A program made the position numbers and the translations under genes. The notes under the pieces are model-generated. The model did no database searches, was not told the DNA's origin, and saw only the letters and a list, made by a program, of their open reading frames with translations. From Planctomicrobium sp. (lineage in GTDB: Bacteria; Planctomycetota; Planctomycetia; Planctomycetales; Planctomycetaceae): a stretch of 12,640 nucleotides of DNA. The stretch is from assembly GCA_029259835.1 (NCBI GenBank), contig JAJDEL010000673.1, positions 1 through 12,640 on the forward strand. Direction: 5' to 3'. Positions 3,239-12,086 of the stretch are shown in pieces (the first letter of the stretch is position 1; each line of letters starts with the position of its first letter).

Positions 3239-4870
3239 ATGACTGGAATTGTTCAAGCATTAGGTGGACTGGGGCTGTTCCTGTTCGGAATGGTTATTAT
3301 GACCTCCGCGCTAAGATCTTTGGCTGACGAAAAGCTTCGCAGACTCTTGGCTCGTACTGTCGACAACCCGCTCAAGGGGGCTGCAACAGGCGCGCTTTCC
3401 ACTGCGGTGCTGCAATCCTCAAGTGCGACGACCGTGGCGGCAGTCGGTTTCGTGGGAGCAGGGCTGCTTACGTTTCCTGAATCCCTGGGCATTATTTTCG
3501 GTGCCAATATCGGGACAACGTTTACAGGATGGGTTGTCGCTCTACTTGGACTCAAGCTCAATCTGGGTGAGGCACTGCTTCCAACAATTCTGGTTGGGGT
3601 TCTCTTCCAGTTAACTGGACGAGACCGCCTTAAGAAAATCGGAATGGCGATCGGTGGATTTGGGCTAATCTTCGTTGGCATCGGTGTTTTGCAGGAAGGA
3701 ATGTCTGAGTTTCAAGACTGGGTCACCCCAGCTCAGTTCCCTCCAGATACACTGACCGGCAGGTTGCTGCTCGTGTTGATTGGGATTGTGATCACCATCG
3801 TGACTCAATCATCAAGTGCAGGTGTCGCCGCCGCTTTGGTGGCGGTTCACACGAATACAATCTCCCTGAATCAAGCTGCGGCGATGGTCATCGGAATGGA
3901 TGTGGGGACAACGGCGACGGCTGCTTTCGCGACGATTGGGGGAAATGTTCAGGCCAGACGCACAGGTTTTGCTCATGTGATTTACAATTCACTCACAGGC
4001 TTGTGTGCTTTTGCCCTGCTCTCGCCATATATGAATTCCGTTGAGCGCATTCTGCCTGGAATAAAACTGAACGATCCTGAAATGGTGCTCGTTGGTTTTC
4101 ACACATTCTTTAATGTGATTGGAGTTATCGCGATCTTACCTTTCACGCACCAGTTTGCGGAGACGATCATTCGCCTCTTTCCGGAACGCGGGAACCCACT
4201 CACAAAACAATTAAGCCGTTCATTGCTGGATCATCCGACAATCGCCATTGCCGCTGCGAAGAACTCCATGAGGGAAATGGCAGTGATATTGCTTGATGAG
4301 TTACATCGCCAACTTGGTGCTCGCAAGACGCAACCAAGCGTCGACCAACGTAGCGATGTGACTGAGGCCATTGAGCAGTTGAACAGTTACCTGGATGAAA
4401 TCGCCGCAAGGTTTCCGTCGGCCCAGCAGGTCTCTGATTACCTGGAATGTGTTCATCTTCTGGACCACCTGCGGAGGATTCACCTTCGGTTACGAAACGA
4501 GAAGCGACTTCGAAAATGTCGAGCAGACACCGAGATTTCTGCGATGTCAGATCAGTTGATGGCATCCATTGAACTCGTCTCGGGGACAATAGGTTCAATC
4601 TCTTCAGAAATTGTGGAACGAGTCCAGTTGTTGAACCGAGATTCAAAAATTGCCATGAAGGAGTACCGGAAGCAGGTTGTACAGCGAGCGTCGAACGGAA
4701 CATTGTCAACCAAAGAAGCGATTCGCCTGATGGACGCGGCCCGCTCGTTGCGCCGTCTTAGTTACCATCTGTGGAGAATGACGTCTCACCTTTCCGAGCT
4801 GGAAGCTGAAGAGAAATCGAAAGAACAAGAACAAACACAGGCTTCTAACACTTCTGAATTTTCAGATTGA
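3239..4870 (+). CDS. Na/Pi cotransporter family protein with C-terminal PhoU-like domain
   Basis: This is a 543-aa inner-membrane protein. Residues 1-300 hold two repeats of the Na/Pi-cotransporter fold (PF02690), each with the diagnostic QSSS motif (59-62 in LQSSSATTVAA and 190-193 in TQSSSAGVAAA). GANIGTT (88-94) and GMDVGTT (219-225) are matching repeat motifs. Residues from about 335 to 525 are a charged, helical, membrane-free tail typical of the PhoU-like domain found in bacterial NptA/YjbB relatives. Such proteins move phosphate with sodium, often for efflux or homeostasis. Length and both motifs are intact. The gene follows the amidohydrolase by 30 nt, and its TGA overlaps a possible TTG start of the next gene (TTGA), so it belongs to the operon. 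Why a phosphate carrier is placed here is not obvious. Confidence 0.9.
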   Translation: MTGIVQALGGLGLFLFGMVIMTSALRSLADEKLRRLLARTVDNPLKGAATGALSTAVLQSSSATTVAAVGFVGAGLLTFPESLGIIFGANIGTTFTGWVVALLGLKLNLGEALLPTILVGVLFQLTGRDRLKKIGMAIGGFGLIFVGIGVLQEGMSEFQDWVTPAQFPPDTLTGRLLLVLIGIVITIVTQSSSAGVAAALVAVHTNTISLNQAAAMVIGMDVGTTATAAFATIGGNVQARRTGFAHVIYNSLTGLCAFALLSPYMNSVERILPGIKLNDPEMVLVGFHTFFNVIGVIAILPFTHQFAETIIRLFPERGNPLTKQLSRSLLDHPTIAIAAAKNSMREMAVILLDELHRQLGARKTQPSVDQRSDVTEAIEQLNSYLDEIAARFPSAQQVSDYLECVHLLDHLRRIHLRLRNEKRLRKCRADTEISAMSDQLMASIELVSGTIGSISSEIVERVQLLNRDSKIAMKEYRKQVVQRASNGTLSTKEAIRLMDAARSLRRLSYHLWRMTSHLSELEAEEKSKEQEQTQASNTSEFSD

Positions 4871-4920
4871 GGCAAGTGATTACTTTACTTAACAACCCGC
4901 TGTTTGAAAGAACTCTTCTC

Positions 4921-5637
4921 ATGAATATCTCATTGTCCTTGTTTCTTCTGATGACCTTTGTGGTGCAATCTCCATCTTTGGGAGATGATGCTTCAGGAGT
5001 CGTCATCCTTGAAGATGACTTCAACCGTGAGGAAAAAGATCCGAGTAAAGAGCAAGTGGGGAATGATTGGGGCACGAACAGTCGCTCTCGAGCTAAAGGC
5101 GTCAAGCAAGTCGATCTCGTTGACGGAGCGATGCACATCACCCGAGCAGACGTCGCGGACCACGGAGTTTCAGTCACCCATGAGGTCGCCTTCCAAGACG
5201 CCACGATTCAACTTCGTTTCAAGCTGAGAGCCAAAGACGATCTTGGAATTAACATCGCCGACATGAAAGAAAAATCCGTCCATGCAGGTCACATTTGTAT
5301 GGCAAGAATTCGTACGAATCGTGTTGAGATTGTCGATCTTAAAACGGGCCGTATGAATTTGAAATCTCGCGAGCAACGGCTCGCTGGAAAATTGTCTGCC
5401 AAGGTTAAAAAAGAGATTGATAAGAAGTCTAAGTTTTTCAAAGTTGATCTGGCTGTTGATCAATGGCATCAGCTTGAAGTGAAGATCGTCGGCAAGACGA
5501 TGACGGTGAGTCTCGATGATAAAAAGATCGGCGAGTTTCAATCCGAAGGCATCGCGCATCTCACCAAAAGCCGTCTGCGCCTGGCGGTTGGTAAATCTGC
5601 TTGGGTGGATGATGTGAAAGTTGTGCGGCTCCAGTAG
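4921..5637 (+). CDS. Secreted LamG/DUF1080-like beta-sandwich protein
   Basis: From the ATG at 4921 this is 238 aa. The same frame extends back to a TTG at 4867 that overlaps the stop of the transporter (TTGA). The ATG start gives a hydrophobic signal without basic residues, whereas the TTG start adds two arginines, so the choice is open. After a likely cleavage near SLG-DD the mature protein begins LEDDFNREE, the common first strand of concanavalin-like 3-keto-disaccharide-hydrolase (DUF1080) and LamG folds. DQWHQLEVKIVGKTMTVSLDDKKIG (written as strand-turn-strand, about residues 180-205 from the ATG) and a terminal WVDDVKVV strand fit the same fold. A lysine-rich insert (about 160-175, KVKKEIDKKSK) is unusual. 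It may bind sugar or protein; no catalytic residues are recognised. It is the last gene of the operon, followed by a hairpin. Confidence 0.65.
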   Translation: MNISLSLFLLMTFVVQSPSLGDDASGVVILEDDFNREEKDPSKEQVGNDWGTNSRSRAKGVKQVDLVDGAMHITRADVADHGVSVTHEVAFQDATIQLRFKLRAKDDLGINIADMKEKSVHAGHICMARIRTNRVEIVDLKTGRMNLKSREQRLAGKLSAKVKKEIDKKSKFFKVDLAVDQWHQLEVKIVGKTMTVSLDDKKIGEFQSEGIAHLTKSRLRLAVGKSAWVDDVKVVRLQ

Positions 5638-5680
5638 CCGTCTTCTTCTCATGTGAATTCAATAAGTCCGCAACGCTAAC

Positions 5681-5698
5681 GGCAGGGAGGACCCTGCC
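5681..5698. terminator. Hairpin between convergent genes (GGCAGGG/CCCTGCC)
   Basis: A perfect 7-bp GC-rich stem, GGCAGGG and CCCTGCC, with loop AGGA lies in the 71-nt gap between the rightward operon (stop at 5637) and the leftward gene ending at 5709. It is well placed to end transcription from both sides, though there is no long T run on either strand. It resembles the hairpin at 6266-6281, so it could also be a dispersed palindromic repeat. Confidence 0.5.
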
Positions 5699-5708
5699 CT
5701 TATAGTCT

Positions 5709-6191
5709 TCACTCCACTTCCTGCCAGCCGCGGTCAATACAGAAGTCACAAAGTGCACTCATCAAGAGTGCCTCGGGTTCTTTCATCCTTCCGACGAAAG
5801 GAATGCTGTCCATTGGATAGAATATGCAGAATACGTCATCACCAATCACACTATCCCTAACCAACTTCGTGGGGTACTCACTTGCGCTCAGAACTCGAGA
5901 GAAAACCACACACTTGTCGTTTGCTGCAAAGACCAAGACTCCCTCATATGATTCAAAGAATTCGTCAAGAAGTTCAAGGTCGCCTCCAAAGCAAAGGGGA
6001 TACTCCTTCATCGCGCGTTTCGACTCCTCTGAGTGATCGATCTTTTGACAGCGAAATCCTGCCGAAGAAAGCTCGGTTTCCCAGTTGGCTGCACGCTCTT
6101 GAGAAACTGTGAAGAAACGGCATGATCGAAGACACGGTAAGAACGTGCTGATTCGTCGCATCGCACGATTAAGAAGATCAGAAAGGTTCAT
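5709..6191 (-). CDS. Unrecognised 160-aa protein
   Basis: I do not recognise this protein. The ATG at 6191 is preferred over a GTG at 6209, because AGGTAGAG precedes the ATG by a few bases while nothing precedes the GTG. The N-terminus (MNLSDLLNRAMRRIS) is basic and amphipathic. A central run alternates hydrophobic strands (GVLVFAANDKCVVFSRVL) with charged turns, and the C-terminus is helical (EALLMSALCDFCIDRGW). It has no signal peptide or membrane segment, so it is probably cytoplasmic. Seven or so cysteines are scattered without a metal-site pattern. It stands alone, convergent with the operon on its left and separated from the hydrolase gene by palindromes. Coding reality is inferred from length, composition and good spacing. 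Confidence 0.55.
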   Translation of the reverse strand: MNLSDLLNRAMRRISTFLPCLRSCRFFTVSQERAANWETELSSAGFRCQKIDHSEESKRAMKEYPLCFGGDLELLDEFFESYEGVLVFAANDKCVVFSRVLSASEYPTKLVRDSVIGDDVFCIFYPMDSIPFVGRMKEPEALLMSALCDFCIDRGWQEVE

Positions 6192-6252
6192 GTTCTCTAC
6201 CTGCTCCACATTTTATTCTTCGGCATTTAATATTGGGGCAGTAATCGTAGTA

Positions 6253-6305
6253 GTGACGAGGTATGGCAGGCTCCCGCCTGCATTTCTCGCCGTGTCACTC
6301 ACGGC
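6253..6305. repeat. Composite palindrome (two hairpins, nested dyad), terminator- or REP-like
   Basis: Stem 1 is GCAGGC (6266-6271), loop TCCC, GCCTGC (6276-6281). Stem 2 is GCCGTG (6289-6294), loop TCACT, CACGGC (6300-6305). In addition GTGACGAG at 6253-6260 can pair, with one interruption, with CTC and GTCAC at 6286-6298, closing a larger fold around stem 1. It begins 9 nt beyond the stop of the leftward hydrolase gene and so could end its transcript. The nested form also resembles REP/BIME units. Confidence 0.5.
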
Positions 6306-6314
6306 AGCAAGCTC

Positions 6315-7400
6315 TCAAAATTCAAGATGCACACGTTTGCAGCCAGGGTCTTCCGCTGTTGGTGTGCCAACGACATCGACCGGATGAGTGTATAAATACT
6401 TCCAGACGGGTTCGAACAGGAAGTTACCGTCTGCGTCTTTCGGGGAGGCACCACCAGGCACGACGGATGAGTGGGCGCGGCGGGTGTCGCCTTTCACATC
6501 CGTAGCGGAGATCAGGCGGCGGCTGTTTTGATAAGGAGAGTTCTGGTCATCGACACTGATAATCGAGCCATACTTGTGCATTCCCAACAGTTCCCAGGAG
6601 CGGCAATAGTGATCGCCGCTCCAACCGCCATCGAGGACATGACTGAAACCGAAGAATCGGTTCGCAGGCGTGGCGGATTTTATTCCTTGCCAGTCTTGGT
6701 CTTGATCTCGTGGTCCGCACAACATGACCACGCGATCAACACGCTGGTGCTTCGCGAATCGGGCTGCTGTTGTTGAGCCATGTGAGCTGCCGGAGATAAT
6801 CACTTTGTCCCAGCGAAGCCCCTGACCATCGGCAGCGAGAAACTGCTTCCACTTTCCTTGCGGGTTTTCTTTGGCAAGCCACTTCACGAACTGAAACGCC
6901 CGTTCGCTCATGCCATCGGGGGTTTCCAAATTCAATTCATCACTAAAATCTTCACCGGTCGCGGCTTCCAGACGGATGTTTCCTCGGGCGTGTGCGTCTT
7001 TCGGTTGAGGGCGACAAAGCAGGCCGAACCACCGGTTTGCATAACTGACTTGAATCGTGTGGAGGCCGTAATTGTTGAGACGCTGGAACAATCTGTCGTT
7101 ATGCCCCATGAGCCAGATGACGAGCTTCCCTTGCGGTGCAACACGGGTATCGACGGCCGCGTTCTCCAAGTCGAGCGGCTTCTTGTCTGTGCCAAAGGTG
7201 AAATTGATTTCCGGATATTCCTTCGTCCTAGAATCAAGCTTGCTCGCCCGCGCCTGTAAGAGATAGCGTTGTGGATTTGGGTCATCGAATACGATTTGTC
7301 CCTGCTGAGCGACTGCTGATTGCGTGAAGAATTCACAAACCAGAATACTCAGTATCGCCAGCGAGGCTCCAATACTACTGTTTGATTTACTGATTTTCAT
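6315..7400 (-). CDS. Secreted alpha/beta hydrolase (serine nucleophile GSSHG)
   Basis: This is a 361-aa exported protein. The ATG at 7400 is chosen because AGGA lies 6 nt upstream; the frame could extend to a GTG at 7415. Residues 1-31 are a Sec signal (K and S rich n-region, then GASLAILSILV, likely cleavage AVA-QQ). The mature part reads as an alpha/beta hydrolase: GKLVIWLMGH (91-100) is the strand leading to the oxyanion turn, and VIISGSSHGSTTAA (200-213) is the nucleophile elbow with S206, followed by VDRVVMLCGPRD. H310 (RRAHSSVV) is a possible catalytic histidine near the C-terminus. The arrangement recalls the BPSS1187-like hydrolases of planctomycetes, but this is from memory of the family. 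The substrate is unknown; an ester or amide is likely. No close partner gene; the upstream gene ends 102 nt away beyond a palindrome. Confidence 0.7.
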   Translation of the reverse strand: MKISKSNSSIGASLAILSILVCEFFTQSAVAQQGQIVFDDPNPQRYLLQARASKLDSRTKEYPEINFTFGTDKKPLDLENAAVDTRVAPQGKLVIWLMGHNDRLFQRLNNYGLHTIQVSYANRWFGLLCRPQPKDAHARGNIRLEAATGEDFSDELNLETPDGMSERAFQFVKWLAKENPQGKWKQFLAADGQGLRWDKVIISGSSHGSTTAARFAKHQRVDRVVMLCGPRDQDQDWQGIKSATPANRFFGFSHVLDGGWSGDHYCRSWELLGMHKYGSIISVDDQNSPYQNSRRLISATDVKGDTRRAHSSVVPGGASPKDADGNFLFEPVWKYLYTHPVDVVGTPTAEDPGCKRVHLEF

Positions 7401-9708: not shown

Positions 9709-10281
9709 ATGACTCGTAAAATCCTCCTTGTTGCCGCTGTGCTGTCGATTGCCAGTCTTTCCGGATCGTCTGTCTTCGCACAGGTTCAAACAAATCCAGC
9801 GGACACTCCATTGATTCAAACATTCCGTATCAATGTTCCCAAGAATATTACGATCACCTGCCCTGACATTCTCGTTGAACATAACCACGACGGAAACGAT
9901 AACGATCAAGTGTTCCCAGTCACCCAAAGTTGGGAAGTCAAAGGCAACGCACAAGCTGGCGTGACTGTCACATTTAGTCTTGATGGACCTTTTACGACCG
10001 GTGCTGGTAATGTTGATCACCAACGCCGCGATGCATCACTGCAAATTACACCAGGTGCTACTTTGGGACCTGCAACATGGACCAGTCCAACGAGTACGCT
10101 CGCGACAGATATTGAAAATGCAATTATGACCGATTCTTACACTGCTTCTTCAGATGGTGTTGGACGAGCAGTTTTCAACCTCGATATGACTTTCGTAAAC
10201 GACCTTTCTGGAGGTGGTTTCGGGACATACGAAGACGGTGTGTACGACACAACTGTGACTGGCGAAGTGACAGAAAACTAG
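9709..10281 (+). CDS. Exported beta-rich protein, paralogue 1 of 3
   Basis: This 190-aa protein is exported. The signal is classic: MTRK, hydrophobic residues to about 20, then VFA-QV (cleavage after 24). The start is set by AGGA 8 nt before the ATG. The mature protein is rich in T, V, D and G and reads as alternating strands: IQTFRINVPKNITITC (37-51), an acidic turn EHNHDGNDNDQVFP (57-70), QSWEVKGN and GVTVTFSLD (73-92), SSDGVGRAVFNLDMTFV (147-163) and the closing strand GVYDTTVTGEVTEN (177-190). The same blocks occur in the two genes downstream, so these are paralogues. There is one lone cysteine (C51) in the mature chain. Single-domain Ig-like architecture of the SCPU/fimbrial kind is my inference. 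The acidic turn may bind calcium. It has its own terminator and the best ribosome site of the three, so it may be the main product. I know of no named family. Confidence 0.75.
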   Translation: MTRKILLVAAVLSIASLSGSSVFAQVQTNPADTPLIQTFRINVPKNITITCPDILVEHNHDGNDNDQVFPVTQSWEVKGNAQAGVTVTFSLDGPFTTGAGNVDHQRRDASLQITPGATLGPATWTSPTSTLATDIENAIMTDSYTASSDGVGRAVFNLDMTFVNDLSGGGFGTYEDGVYDTTVTGEVTEN

Positions 10282-10321
10282 ACAAAAAACGGAACTCTGT
10301 CTCCGGACACGATTGAAAATT

Positions 10322-10361
10322 AAACGCCTCTTAGCGATTCAGTGCTAAGAGGCGTTTTTTT
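10322..10361 (+). terminator. Intrinsic terminator after paralogue 1
   Basis: A perfect 14-bp stem, AAACGCCTCTTAGC (10322-10335) and GCTAAGAGGCGTTT (10344-10357), with an 8-nt loop, runs into seven T residues (10355-10361). It is 40 nt beyond the stop at 10281. This is the clearest rho-independent terminator in the window and makes paralogue 1 a separate transcription unit. Confidence 0.93.
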
Positions 10362-10602
10362 GTGCGCGGAGAAGACTCCTGCAACTGAAGATGAGCGCCT
10401 AGCATTTCACTTGTTCGATAGGGCACTATGGGAATTTAGAAGATTCTGCTTCAAAATGGTCTCCTTCCCACGATATGATGCAATCCTGTATCAGTCGTGT
10501 GGATAGTATTGATCATGCCGAAAATGACTCTTGAGTCGATTTTAACTGATCGAGTCTGCACTGACGCGTCAACATCGACTGCGGATTTTGTACAGCCTCA
10601 TC
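10362..10602 (+). promoter_or_regulatory. Spacer upstream of paralogue 2 with the shared TGTATCAGT word
   Basis: These 241 bp follow the terminator. TGTATCAGT at 10487-10495 matches the words upstream of paralogues 1 and 3, and a short dyad GACTC-TT-GAGTC lies at 10526-10537. Because the terminator cuts read-through, paralogue 2 needs a promoter here. I see no good Shine-Dalgarno before 10603. A 32-codon frame (10515-10613) overlaps the start but has nothing to support it. Confidence 0.4.
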
Positions 10603-11220
10603 ATGCGAACTGACCACTCAATCTTGATCAGACTACACAAGTCTGTGTTGGTCTGCTTGCTCTTATTGCTAGCGAACTCAGAGCGTGTACACGCCCAAAG
10701 TCAGAGCGCGAAAATCGGTCAGCCGATCAAACAGACTTTCCGAATGATTGTGCCAGCAAGTTTCTCAACTGTTGGCCCAGCACCAGTCGTCTTTGCAAAT
10801 CGAGAGAGCGTCAAGCAGCCGCTGCAATTCAAGTCTCAGCAGTGGACAATCCATTCTCAATCTCGTCGAGGTTTGAACGTGACTGTTTCACTGAAACAAC
10901 CCAGTGCAATCCAGAGATTGGATTATCCAGAAGGATCACTGGACGTTCAATTGCCGCAGACCCTCTTCAAAGCGACTTTGCAAACAATTAATAAGTCAAG
11001 TTTTCTTAGAGGGTCTCTTCAGTCTTCGACTCAATCAACTGATCAATTGGATCACGAGAACCTGAAATGGCAAACGGGAACAGACGGGACTGGACGACTT
11101 ACGATTTCGGTCGCTCCATCCATGGTCGTTGTCGATGGCTTGAGTGAACACGATTCACCCATTCACTCGCCAAGAGGCTCACTCGCGATTATCACAAGTG
11201 AAGTGACTGAGTCCCCGTAA
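10603..11220 (+). CDS. Exported beta-rich protein, paralogue 2 of 3
   Basis: From the ATG at 10603 this is 205 aa; the frame reaches a TTG at 10588. The signal has a long basic n-region (MRTDHSILIRLHK), the core SVLVCLLLLLA and likely cleavage at VHA-QS (31-32). The mature N-terminus, PIKQTFRMIVP (41-51), matches PLIQTFRINVP of paralogue 1. The W strand is QQWTIHSQSRRGLNVTVSL (79-97), the G strand is GTDGTGRLTISV (159-170) and the protein ends SLAIITSEVTESP. It lacks the acidic HDGND-QVFP turn of its two neighbours and is much richer in S, Q and basic residues, so its binding surface probably differs. It has no mature-chain cysteine. The role is unknown; a divergent subunit of the same structure as paralogue 1 is the simplest reading. 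Confidence 0.7.
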   Translation: MRTDHSILIRLHKSVLVCLLLLLANSERVHAQSQSAKIGQPIKQTFRMIVPASFSTVGPAPVVFANRESVKQPLQFKSQQWTIHSQSRRGLNVTVSLKQPSAIQRLDYPEGSLDVQLPQTLFKATLQTINKSSFLRGSLQSSTQSTDQLDHENLKWQTGTDGTGRLTISVAPSMVVVDGLSEHDSPIHSPRGSLAIITSEVTESP

Positions 11221-11549
11221 AAACCTTTCGCTACTTGTCAACTGTGGTCTGAGTCTTGCCACGGAGCAATTTAGCTGGACACTTAAAGTGTCCGACAAAG
11301 TATACAAATCGCTGAAGTCGCAATTCACGAATGGACTAAGTGCGTTCACACTTGGCGTGTGGCAGAAATTGCCCTTCCAGGTTTTCTCCCGATGTTCTGG
11401 AAAGATGGGGCGTCTAGGGTGAATAGTTTCATTGCGAAAAATTTTCGAATTGTATCAGTGTTGTGAATTGCAACACCTGCGTTGCCGATAACGAAAAGAG
11501 AATAGCGGTGTTCCCTCAATTGTGAGTAGTTACAACACAGGTCGAAATT
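11221..11549 (+). promoter_or_regulatory. Spacer upstream of paralogue 3, dense in dyads
   Basis: This 329-bp gap has no gene. It holds GGACACTT-A-AAGTGTCC (11277-11293), CACAC-TTGGC-GTGTG (11347-11361) and CGAAAA-A-TTTTCG (11435-11447), followed by TGTATCAGTG (11451-11460), which overlaps the dyad GTGTTG-N7-CAACAC (11458-11476). A related TTGTGA...ACAACAC arrangement sits at 11520-11538 just before the start. GTTTCATTG (11426-11434) and GAATTGCAA (11465-11473) recur upstream of paralogue 1. The first dyad may end the transcript of paralogue 2, although no T run follows; the later ones are placed to act as operators. Confidence 0.45.
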
Positions 11550-12086
11550 GTGCTCACATTACCAGCAACACTTCAACTGAATGGAAAGAACCTATTCCGT
11601 TTAACTACTTACTTATTTTTGATCTGCGTTTTCAAGTTCTCCCTATTCTGTAGTGAACTCCCAGGGGCACCACCATTTGTCATCGCCACTGGCGGAAAAC
11701 AGGAGATCGTTCATGATGGGACAAATGATCCACAAGTCTTTCCCGCTCAAAAATGGAATCTCATAGCACCACAAAGTACTTTTGGCGCGACAGTTCAATG
11801 GGAAGCTTCACCCTTCAGACACGTAGGAGACTCCGAGGCAGAAGCTGATATTCGCATGGATCTTTCGATTCGACATTCAACGCAAAACGCACAGTGGACC
11901 GCGATTTCCCCAACAGATCAAACAAACATTGCAAACGGAAGTCGAAAAGCAGGTGTTGTCGCGATGTCGACGCGACGGGGAGTCGGGCAGGTCGAGTTGG
12001 TCGTCACATTTATTGAAAGCCCAGAAAATATCCTCGTCGTCGGAGACTACGAGGCTGTTGTGATTGCGACAATTACAGAAAACTGA
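11550..12086 (+). CDS. Exported beta-rich protein, paralogue 3 of 3
   Basis: This 178-aa protein starts with GTG, the only usable start in frame before a stop at 11523; AGGT lies 8 nt upstream. The hydrophobic segment LTTYLFLICVFKFSLFCS (18-35) acts as a signal, with cleavage near FCS-EL. The mature chain is shorter at the front and lacks the QTFR-x-x-VP strand of the other two. It keeps the acidic turn (IVHDGTNDPQVFP, 53-65), the W strand (QKWNLIAP with W69), GVGQVELVVTFIE (144-156) and the end GDYEAVVIATITEN, so it is closest to paralogue 1. Spacing between the W and G-x-G blocks (about 75 residues) equals that of paralogue 1. It is followed after 21 nt by the lipoprotein gene and is probably co-transcribed with it. 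Confidence 0.7.
   Translation: MLTLPATLQLNGKNLFRLTTYLFLICVFKFSLFCSELPGAPPFVIATGGKQEIVHDGTNDPQVFPAQKWNLIAPQSTFGATVQWEASPFRHVGDSEAEADIRMDLSIRHSTQNAQWTAISPTDQTNIANGSRKAGVVAMSTRRGVGQVELVVTFIESPENILVVGDYEAVVIATITEN

Follow-up and report, generated by a model that had tools for sequence, protein, structure and literature searches.

The window analysed here spans the whole of contig C637 (12640 bases), from a draft Planctomicrobium genome, G000, that is 82% complete. It carries three consecutive genes for small exported proteins, p1, p2 and p3, followed by the 5' part of a secretin gene (Table 1). We found that these genes belong to a conserved operon made up of exported subunits, a dedicated secretin and a further protein, here called chap. 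This gene system is well supported, and it points to an unfamiliar route for placing protein structures on the cell surface. As to its function, it is plausible, if somewhat short of probable, that p1-p3 are Sec-exported, probably incomplete immunoglobulin (Ig)-like subunits and that a chaperone-secretin pathway builds them into a surface fibre or coat.

A conserved operon of subunits, secretin and chap

In a second genome of the genus, G002, the same trio is followed by a lipoprotein with a secretin domain and then by chap (~550 residues). The last gene of the window (12108 to the end) matches the complete G002 secretin at a phmmer E of 2e-78; since it belongs to the same operon, the operon extends past the trio. 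In G000 the operon is split over contigs C637 and C553, which were left unjoined, and Pfam Secretin is matched on C553 at E 2.7e-36. Among six genomes of the genus, one of which (G003) is 75% complete, p1 was matched in G000 and G002 only. Three families of the class show this gene order, namely subunit, often a second subunit, secretin and then chap.

An earlier note on this DNA, made from the sequence alone, had proposed a profile search among planctomycetes. A profile of 18 subunits gave a match at E 0.001 in 22 of 397 class genomes. A chap profile (17 proteins) matched 20 of the 397 at E 1e-5, and all 20 fall among the 22 subunit genomes (hypergeometric 1e-31, shared ancestry uncorrected). 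From the 30 regions fetched around subunit matches, subunit, secretin and chap were found on one contig in 18 genomes, which together with the split G000 makes 19/22 linked; in G375 the secretin-chap pair lies on a different contig from the subunits. The gene for chap comes next after that for the secretin in 20/20 chap genomes. A second subunit gene stands ahead of the secretin in 11 of the 19 operons, one of which is G265, where this second-type gene is the sole subunit gene before the contig ends; the other eight have a subunit-secretin gap of 119-267 bases. Both secretin and chap are broken into separate frames in G354 (L072), where the operon may thus be decaying.

Around 17 operon loci, from which the near-duplicates L050 and L052 had been left out beforehand, no other family, whether a regulator or an extra operon gene, recurs in more than three, except for frames antisense to the secretin in eight. 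A frame upstream of the G002 trio (L015 5753-6436, - strand) matches only positions 180-370 of 657 of FHIPEP (FlhA).

The exported proteins form one family with two old classes

The earlier note had read p1-p3 as one fold, duplicated and specialised. Comparison within the trio (phmmer, three-sequence database) connects p1 with p2 (E 5e-10) and with p3 (E 2e-7), with p2-p3 marginal at E 0.03-0.04; because p2 and p3 each connect to p1, all three are one family. A search of G000 with p1 found p2 at 1.6e-5, and profile A1, which contains p3 and was built without p2, retrieves p2 at 5.8e-10. The phmmer results, profile A1 and the subunit tree described below thus bear out a single family that was duplicated and specialised.

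Most of the features listed for the trio were readily seen. Each protein begins with a hydrophobic stretch that reads by eye as a signal peptide. A W strand is followed by GVTV, GLNV and GATV in p1, p2 and p3, respectively, a further strand carries GVGR, GTGR and GVGQ, and the C-terminal ends contain EVTEN, EVTESP and TITEN. The HDG block is present in p1 (HDGNDNDQVFP) and p3 (HDGTNDPQVFP). The block given as IQTFR in p1 and p2 holds for its larger part (QTFRINVP and QTFRMIVP), whereas the preceding I occurs only in p1 and is K in p2.

As the note had anticipated, no named family with these features exceeds the curated Pfam or NCBIfam cut-offs in p1-p3: p1 and p3 have no match at E 1, and the matches of p2 lie far below family cut-offs. 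A search of 5.8 billion proteins returned 13 relatives of p1 besides itself at E 0.01, and none of them carries a precomputed Pfam domain. The suggested membership in SCPU, DUF4402 or fimbrial families, on the other hand, is unsupported by the Pfam scan and by comparison with known subunits. No such family is among the 25 of 26 Pfam families listed for 45 members scanned at E 10, a setting at which HMMER filters remove most matches above 0.1, and against 11 Escherichia coli K-12 fimbrial subunits our subunits score at chance level. DUF4402 reaches E 0.45 with one distant exported protein; a DUF4402 search of 199 genomes gave no match and its control was also silent, so that it is uninformative. 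Sequence searches of the PDB with subunit profiles returned non-significant matches only.

We then placed the subunits in a tree of 46 rows; the partial second-subunit rows L072 and L074 were excluded from it and from the motif count below. p3 groups with the second subunits of other genomes (class SUB2), nine of the 10 SUB2 rows forming one branch (SH-aLRT 98), while the remaining row, L049, lies elsewhere on a long branch. p2 is the sister of p1 (SH-aLRT 84), on a long branch, and its type was seen only in two same-genus genomes that carry the operon. By tree placement the trio therefore comprises a SUB1 subunit, a genus-only copy of it and a SUB2 subunit, the last of these belonging to an old second subunit class.

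At the N-terminus, SUB1 proteins carry a strand pair of the form FTVTVP-x-NISIT, which is missing from SUB2 (p3 is without the VP-x-NITIT segment). A regular expression for this pair, composed after viewing the sequences, matched 15/19 SUB1, 0/10 SUB2, 1/2 p2-type and 11/15 orphan proteins; automatic signal-peptide cut sites were unreliable and were not used. At the other end, subunit rows stop as soon as a strand of the form G-x-Y-x-T-x-V-x-G-T-V/I-T-x-N is complete. In outline this strand reads G-x-Y...V-x-x-x-V/I; pilins generally lack the strand that would come next.

The copy of p1 in G002 has a 13-pair hairpin 3' of the gene; together with the one behind p1 (Table 1), this would allow p1 to be produced in excess. 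A terminator after SUB1 was rejected as a general feature, being clear in the genus and in L050/L051 and weak or absent elsewhere; the simple hairpin search also matches 0-5 of 20 shuffles. Subunits encoded outside the operon's subunit position form a branch of their own (10 rows, SH-aLRT 93: L017, L056, L058, L060, L061, L063, L065 (5141-5677), L066, L068 and L069). Six of the eight genomes with such genes also have chap, so these may be alternative subunits.

chap is related to DUF916/WxLIP proteins

At E 1, chap members match Ig-like Pfam families of the PapD/MSP/ASH and Fn3 kinds, with Cep192_D3 (Ig-like) in 26 of 39 members (best 2.6e-7), fn3_5 in 21, HYDIN-like in 11, MSP in 7 and PapD_N in 3 (best E 0.0096). 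No DUF916/WxLIP match is among the 25 of 41 Pfam families listed for the near chaps. Profile comparison with eight actinobacterial DUF916 proteins gave Prob 97.2 and E 4.6e-11 over 206 columns in the C-terminal half of chap; this half scored 84.8 versus at most 16.9 in 12 column shuffles, and the N half reached Prob 27.7. Of four distant chaps scanned, one passes the cut-off of WxLIP_PGBD (PF06030) at 2.1e-7. These profile matches make chap a relative of the DUF916/WxLIP proteins, which partner WxL domains. Its two halves match one another (Prob 71, E 3.7e-5), and chap hence reads as two tandem WxLIP-like units; by eye it has no C-terminal membrane helix. Against the PDB, chap gave RbmA (0.08) and YadV (0.7), neither of them significant, and the G002 chap had no match among plasmids.

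One study (PMC10599100) describes WxLIP as a partner of WxL with two Ig-like domains and reports an AlphaFold2 prediction in which a beta-hairpin strand of DUF916 inserts into WxL. This prediction and the relationship of chap, encoded beyond the window, to DUF916/WxLIP lend indirect support to the earlier note's suggestion that the subunits pair by strand exchange. In the actinobacterial loci that we opened (8 of 13 matched records, the other five being left out), the DUF916-type gene is closely preceded by a gene for a small exported protein in 8/8; one of these small genes is annotated as WxL and a second reaches Pfam WxL at 5.5e-4, short of the cut-off. The identification of our subunits as WxL domains was rejected, the match being limited to the C-terminal strand: including signal peptides, the subunit profile reached Prob 39.8 over 33 columns against the actinobacterial WxL-like proteins. 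Pfam WxL has no match in G000, the Lactococcus control being positive.

The secretin forms its own clade, and no usher is found

The complete G002 secretin matches Pfam Secretin (PF00263) at E 1.4e-35. Among proteins of known structure the best sequence matches are PilQ and GspD, and a phage virion export protein also matches. In a secretin tree, 17 operon secretins form one clade (support 100) that also holds one outside row, treated as an artefact because only 17% of its columns are filled; for comparison the tree took 20 of the non-operon secretins of five genomes, a subset of those present, and several of these are partial because of how they were cut. The operon-secretin profile scores 20 other secretins (five genomes) at 38-112 bits versus 163-378 bits for seven distant chap-linked ones. 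A lipobox expression matched 13/17 operon secretins, the misses being two without a proper start and two with near-lipobox cysteines.

A search for the usher domain (PF00577) was positive in the E. coli control and found none in 18 operon genomes (G354 and G375 lay outside this search). The secretion ATPase domain T2SSE (PF00437) is present in 8/8 genomes tested, which hold 9-16 T2SSE and 6-8 secretin matches each. In four well-assembled genomes no secretion ATPase is encoded closer than 125 kb to the operon; the nearest T2SSE gene is ~650 (G306), 340 (G321), 129 (G155) or 1,257 kb (G201) from the operon secretin.

Features of the window

Table 1. Positions of the operon genes and associated elements in the window, with chap on a second contig of the same genome.
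Feature	Position	Strand	Basis
p1, exported subunit class SUB1, 190 aa	9709-10281	+	ORF, relatives, profile A1
p1 signal peptide	about 9709-9780	+	by eye
p1 N-terminal strand pair QTFRINVP-KNITIT; chain stops directly after strand VYDTTVTGEVTEN			
Intrinsic-terminator-like hairpin directly 3' of p1, 15 pairs then T run	10322-10357	+	
p2, fast-diverging p1 copy, 205 aa	10603-11220	+	profile A1, tree
p3, exported subunit class SUB2, 178 aa, GTG start	11550-12086	+	ORF, profile, tree
Lipoprotein secretin gene, 5' part, runs off contig end	12108-12640	+	lipobox LALTGC by eye
chap (contig G000:C553, beside secretin 3' part)	4824-6503	-	

Between p2 and p3, positions 11264-11301 hold a small dispersed repeat of ~30 bp; five contigs of the same genome carry six further copies, which are 87-93% identical to it.

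Distant chap loci

A wider chap profile found relatives in 10 of 392 phylum genomes at E 1e-4, G000 included; its matches G584 and G665 were left unopened. Eight distant loci were read. Six of them (L085-L089 and L107) have a secretin gene clustered with chap; the secretin match in L108 falls in a longer frame that overlaps chap. Small exported proteins are encoded at L086-L089, L107 and L109, and the subunit profile touches one L109 frame at 4.3e-6. Several distant operons also show by eye a lipoprotein-like frame, small in some and longer in others, after the secretin, perhaps a pilotin (L086 633-989, L087 8506-9522, L089 1264-2280 and L107 6262-6639).

A tblastn search from the distant chap that passes WxLIP_PGBD found two Deinococcus plasmid proteins (5e-12 and 3e-8) and an Arthrobacter protein annotated as DUF916 (E 0.05). 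On Deinococcus plasmids (L103-L105), a chap-like protein of ~260-330 aa is closely followed by a large protein of 839-1090 aa; the large proteins scanned (L103 and L104) match CarboxypepD_reg, SdrD_B and Ig-like families. Genes for small exported proteins stand nearby, possibly as part of another assembly system.

Proposed pathway and alternatives

We propose that chap would be a periplasmic protein of two tandem WxLIP/PapD-like Ig pairs that caps exported subunits in the periplasm by lending them a beta strand, the part predicted for WxLIP towards WxL and played by PapD-type chaperones towards pilins. In this scheme the secretin ring would replace the usher as the outer-membrane gate and work without a dedicated ATPase. 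SUB1 subunits would be the repeating unit of a surface fibre or coat, each linked to the next by its N-terminal strand, and SUB2, which is one strand's worth shorter at the N-terminus, may end or start the polymer where it is present.

Such an arrangement would resemble known systems. With the WxL/WxLIP (DUF916-DUF3324) clusters of Gram-positive bacteria it shares small exported proteins beside a DUF916-related Ig-like protein, for which strand insertion from DUF916 into WxL is predicted (PMC10599100). It differs from them in its diderm hosts and dedicated secretin, in the tandem duplication of chap and its lack, by eye, of a membrane helix, and in subunits unrecognisable as WxL. Like the chaperone-usher pathway, it combines small exported subunits, an Ig-like chaperone-type partner and an outer-membrane gate in one operon with no ATPase nearby; unlike that pathway, it has a secretin in place of the usher, its chap is weakly similar to PapD, and its subunits do not resemble fimbrial families by sequence. 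A tandem WxLIP/PapD-like chaperone, assembly of Ig-like subunits by strand exchange and exit through a dedicated ATPase-free secretin might together amount to an alternative to the usher that links Gram-positive WxL complexes with Gram-negative pili, a tentative and somewhat unlikely synthesis.

Several observations weigh against a chaperone-secretin pathway. The subunits, whose Ig fold is putative, give as a whole profile Prob 0.6 with K-12 pilins, Prob 4.9 with the actinobacterial WxL-like proteins (30 columns, C-terminal strand) and Prob 6.3 with the small exported proteins encoded beside distant chap-secretin pairs. When compared with seven PapD-type chaperones of K-12, chap shows weak similarity (Prob at most 20); its longest alignment covers 174 columns with Prob 3.6 and scores 26, versus no more than 17 in shuffles. 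In G145 and G260 subunit genes occur without chap, and L109, the other chap locus of G733, where bases are masked, showed no secretin. A second subunit is present in only 11/19 operons, so SUB2 is not an obligatory tip. Finally, known secretin systems usually depend on an inner-membrane motor, and chap and secretin in G733 (L085 1-12000) lie, by eye, upstream of frames resembling a type IV pseudopilin and GspE/GspF proteins.

The main alternative is a non-fibrous, WxL-like adhesive complex of subunits and chap at the cell wall or outer surface, with the secretin acting only in export or anchoring. We regard it as rather unlikely. The relationship of chap to DUF916/WxLIP, the small exported gene just upstream of all eight opened DUF916 genes and the description of WxLIP as a WxL partner in PMC10599100 all agree with such a complex, whereas the subunits as whole profiles gave no match to WxL-like proteins, chap is duplicated and by eye lacks a C-terminal membrane helix, and a dedicated secretin with two subunit classes exceeds what an anchor needs.

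It is unlikely that the secretin instead serves as outer gate to a common type II or type IV pilus machine whose genes lie elsewhere, with the subunits as folded substrates and chap as an accessory. The T2SSE and secretin matches in all eight tested genomes and the T2SS/T4P-like frames (by eye) adjoining chap and secretin in G733 favour this explanation, yet the nearest T2SSE gene is ~129 kb or more away in the four well-assembled genomes, the operon clade is separate from 20 other secretins save for the 17%-filled row, and the secretin-chap pair is kept in 20/20 chap genomes. The operon secretin shares its domain with GspD (type II secretion), PilQ (type IV pili) and pIV (filamentous phage), but differs from them in having its own clade and subunits and chap as partners, and genes for a motor, pilins or a platform are not recurrent in the operon loci.

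Classical SCPU or fimbrial-type subunits diverged past recognition, with an usher still to be found, would account for the common size, export and chain-terminal C-terminal strand of p1-p3, but this already disfavoured reading is very improbable given 0/18 operon genomes with an usher domain (E. coli control positive) and no such family among the 25 of 26 listed for 45 members.

Relation to published systems and meaning

Among the matches listed for secretin and WxL, all papers are unrelated by title, and a search around the chap-secretin operon, in literature other than subscription papers and preprints, gave no paper pairing DUF916 with a secretin. The term 'chaperone-secretin' has a single use, unrelated by its title and the start of its abstract. 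Chaperone-usher, secretin and planctomycetes together returned one survey of secretion systems; spore coat, secretin, chaperone and planctomycetes returned none. In the review PMC7616799, the passages naming a secretin concern the type IV pilus.

Planctomycete pili-like fibres of 12 nm on large crateriform structures have been described by microscopy, with no protein named for them in the passages concerned (PMC5394234). The operon supplies candidate genes for planctomycete surface fibres; because chap occurs in ~5% of the sampled class genomes (20/397), it cannot account for a universal structure. Should a secretin serve Ig-like subunits without a motor, secretins and donor-strand chaperones would have wider roles, and DUF916/WxLIP would be tied to a general chaperone role.

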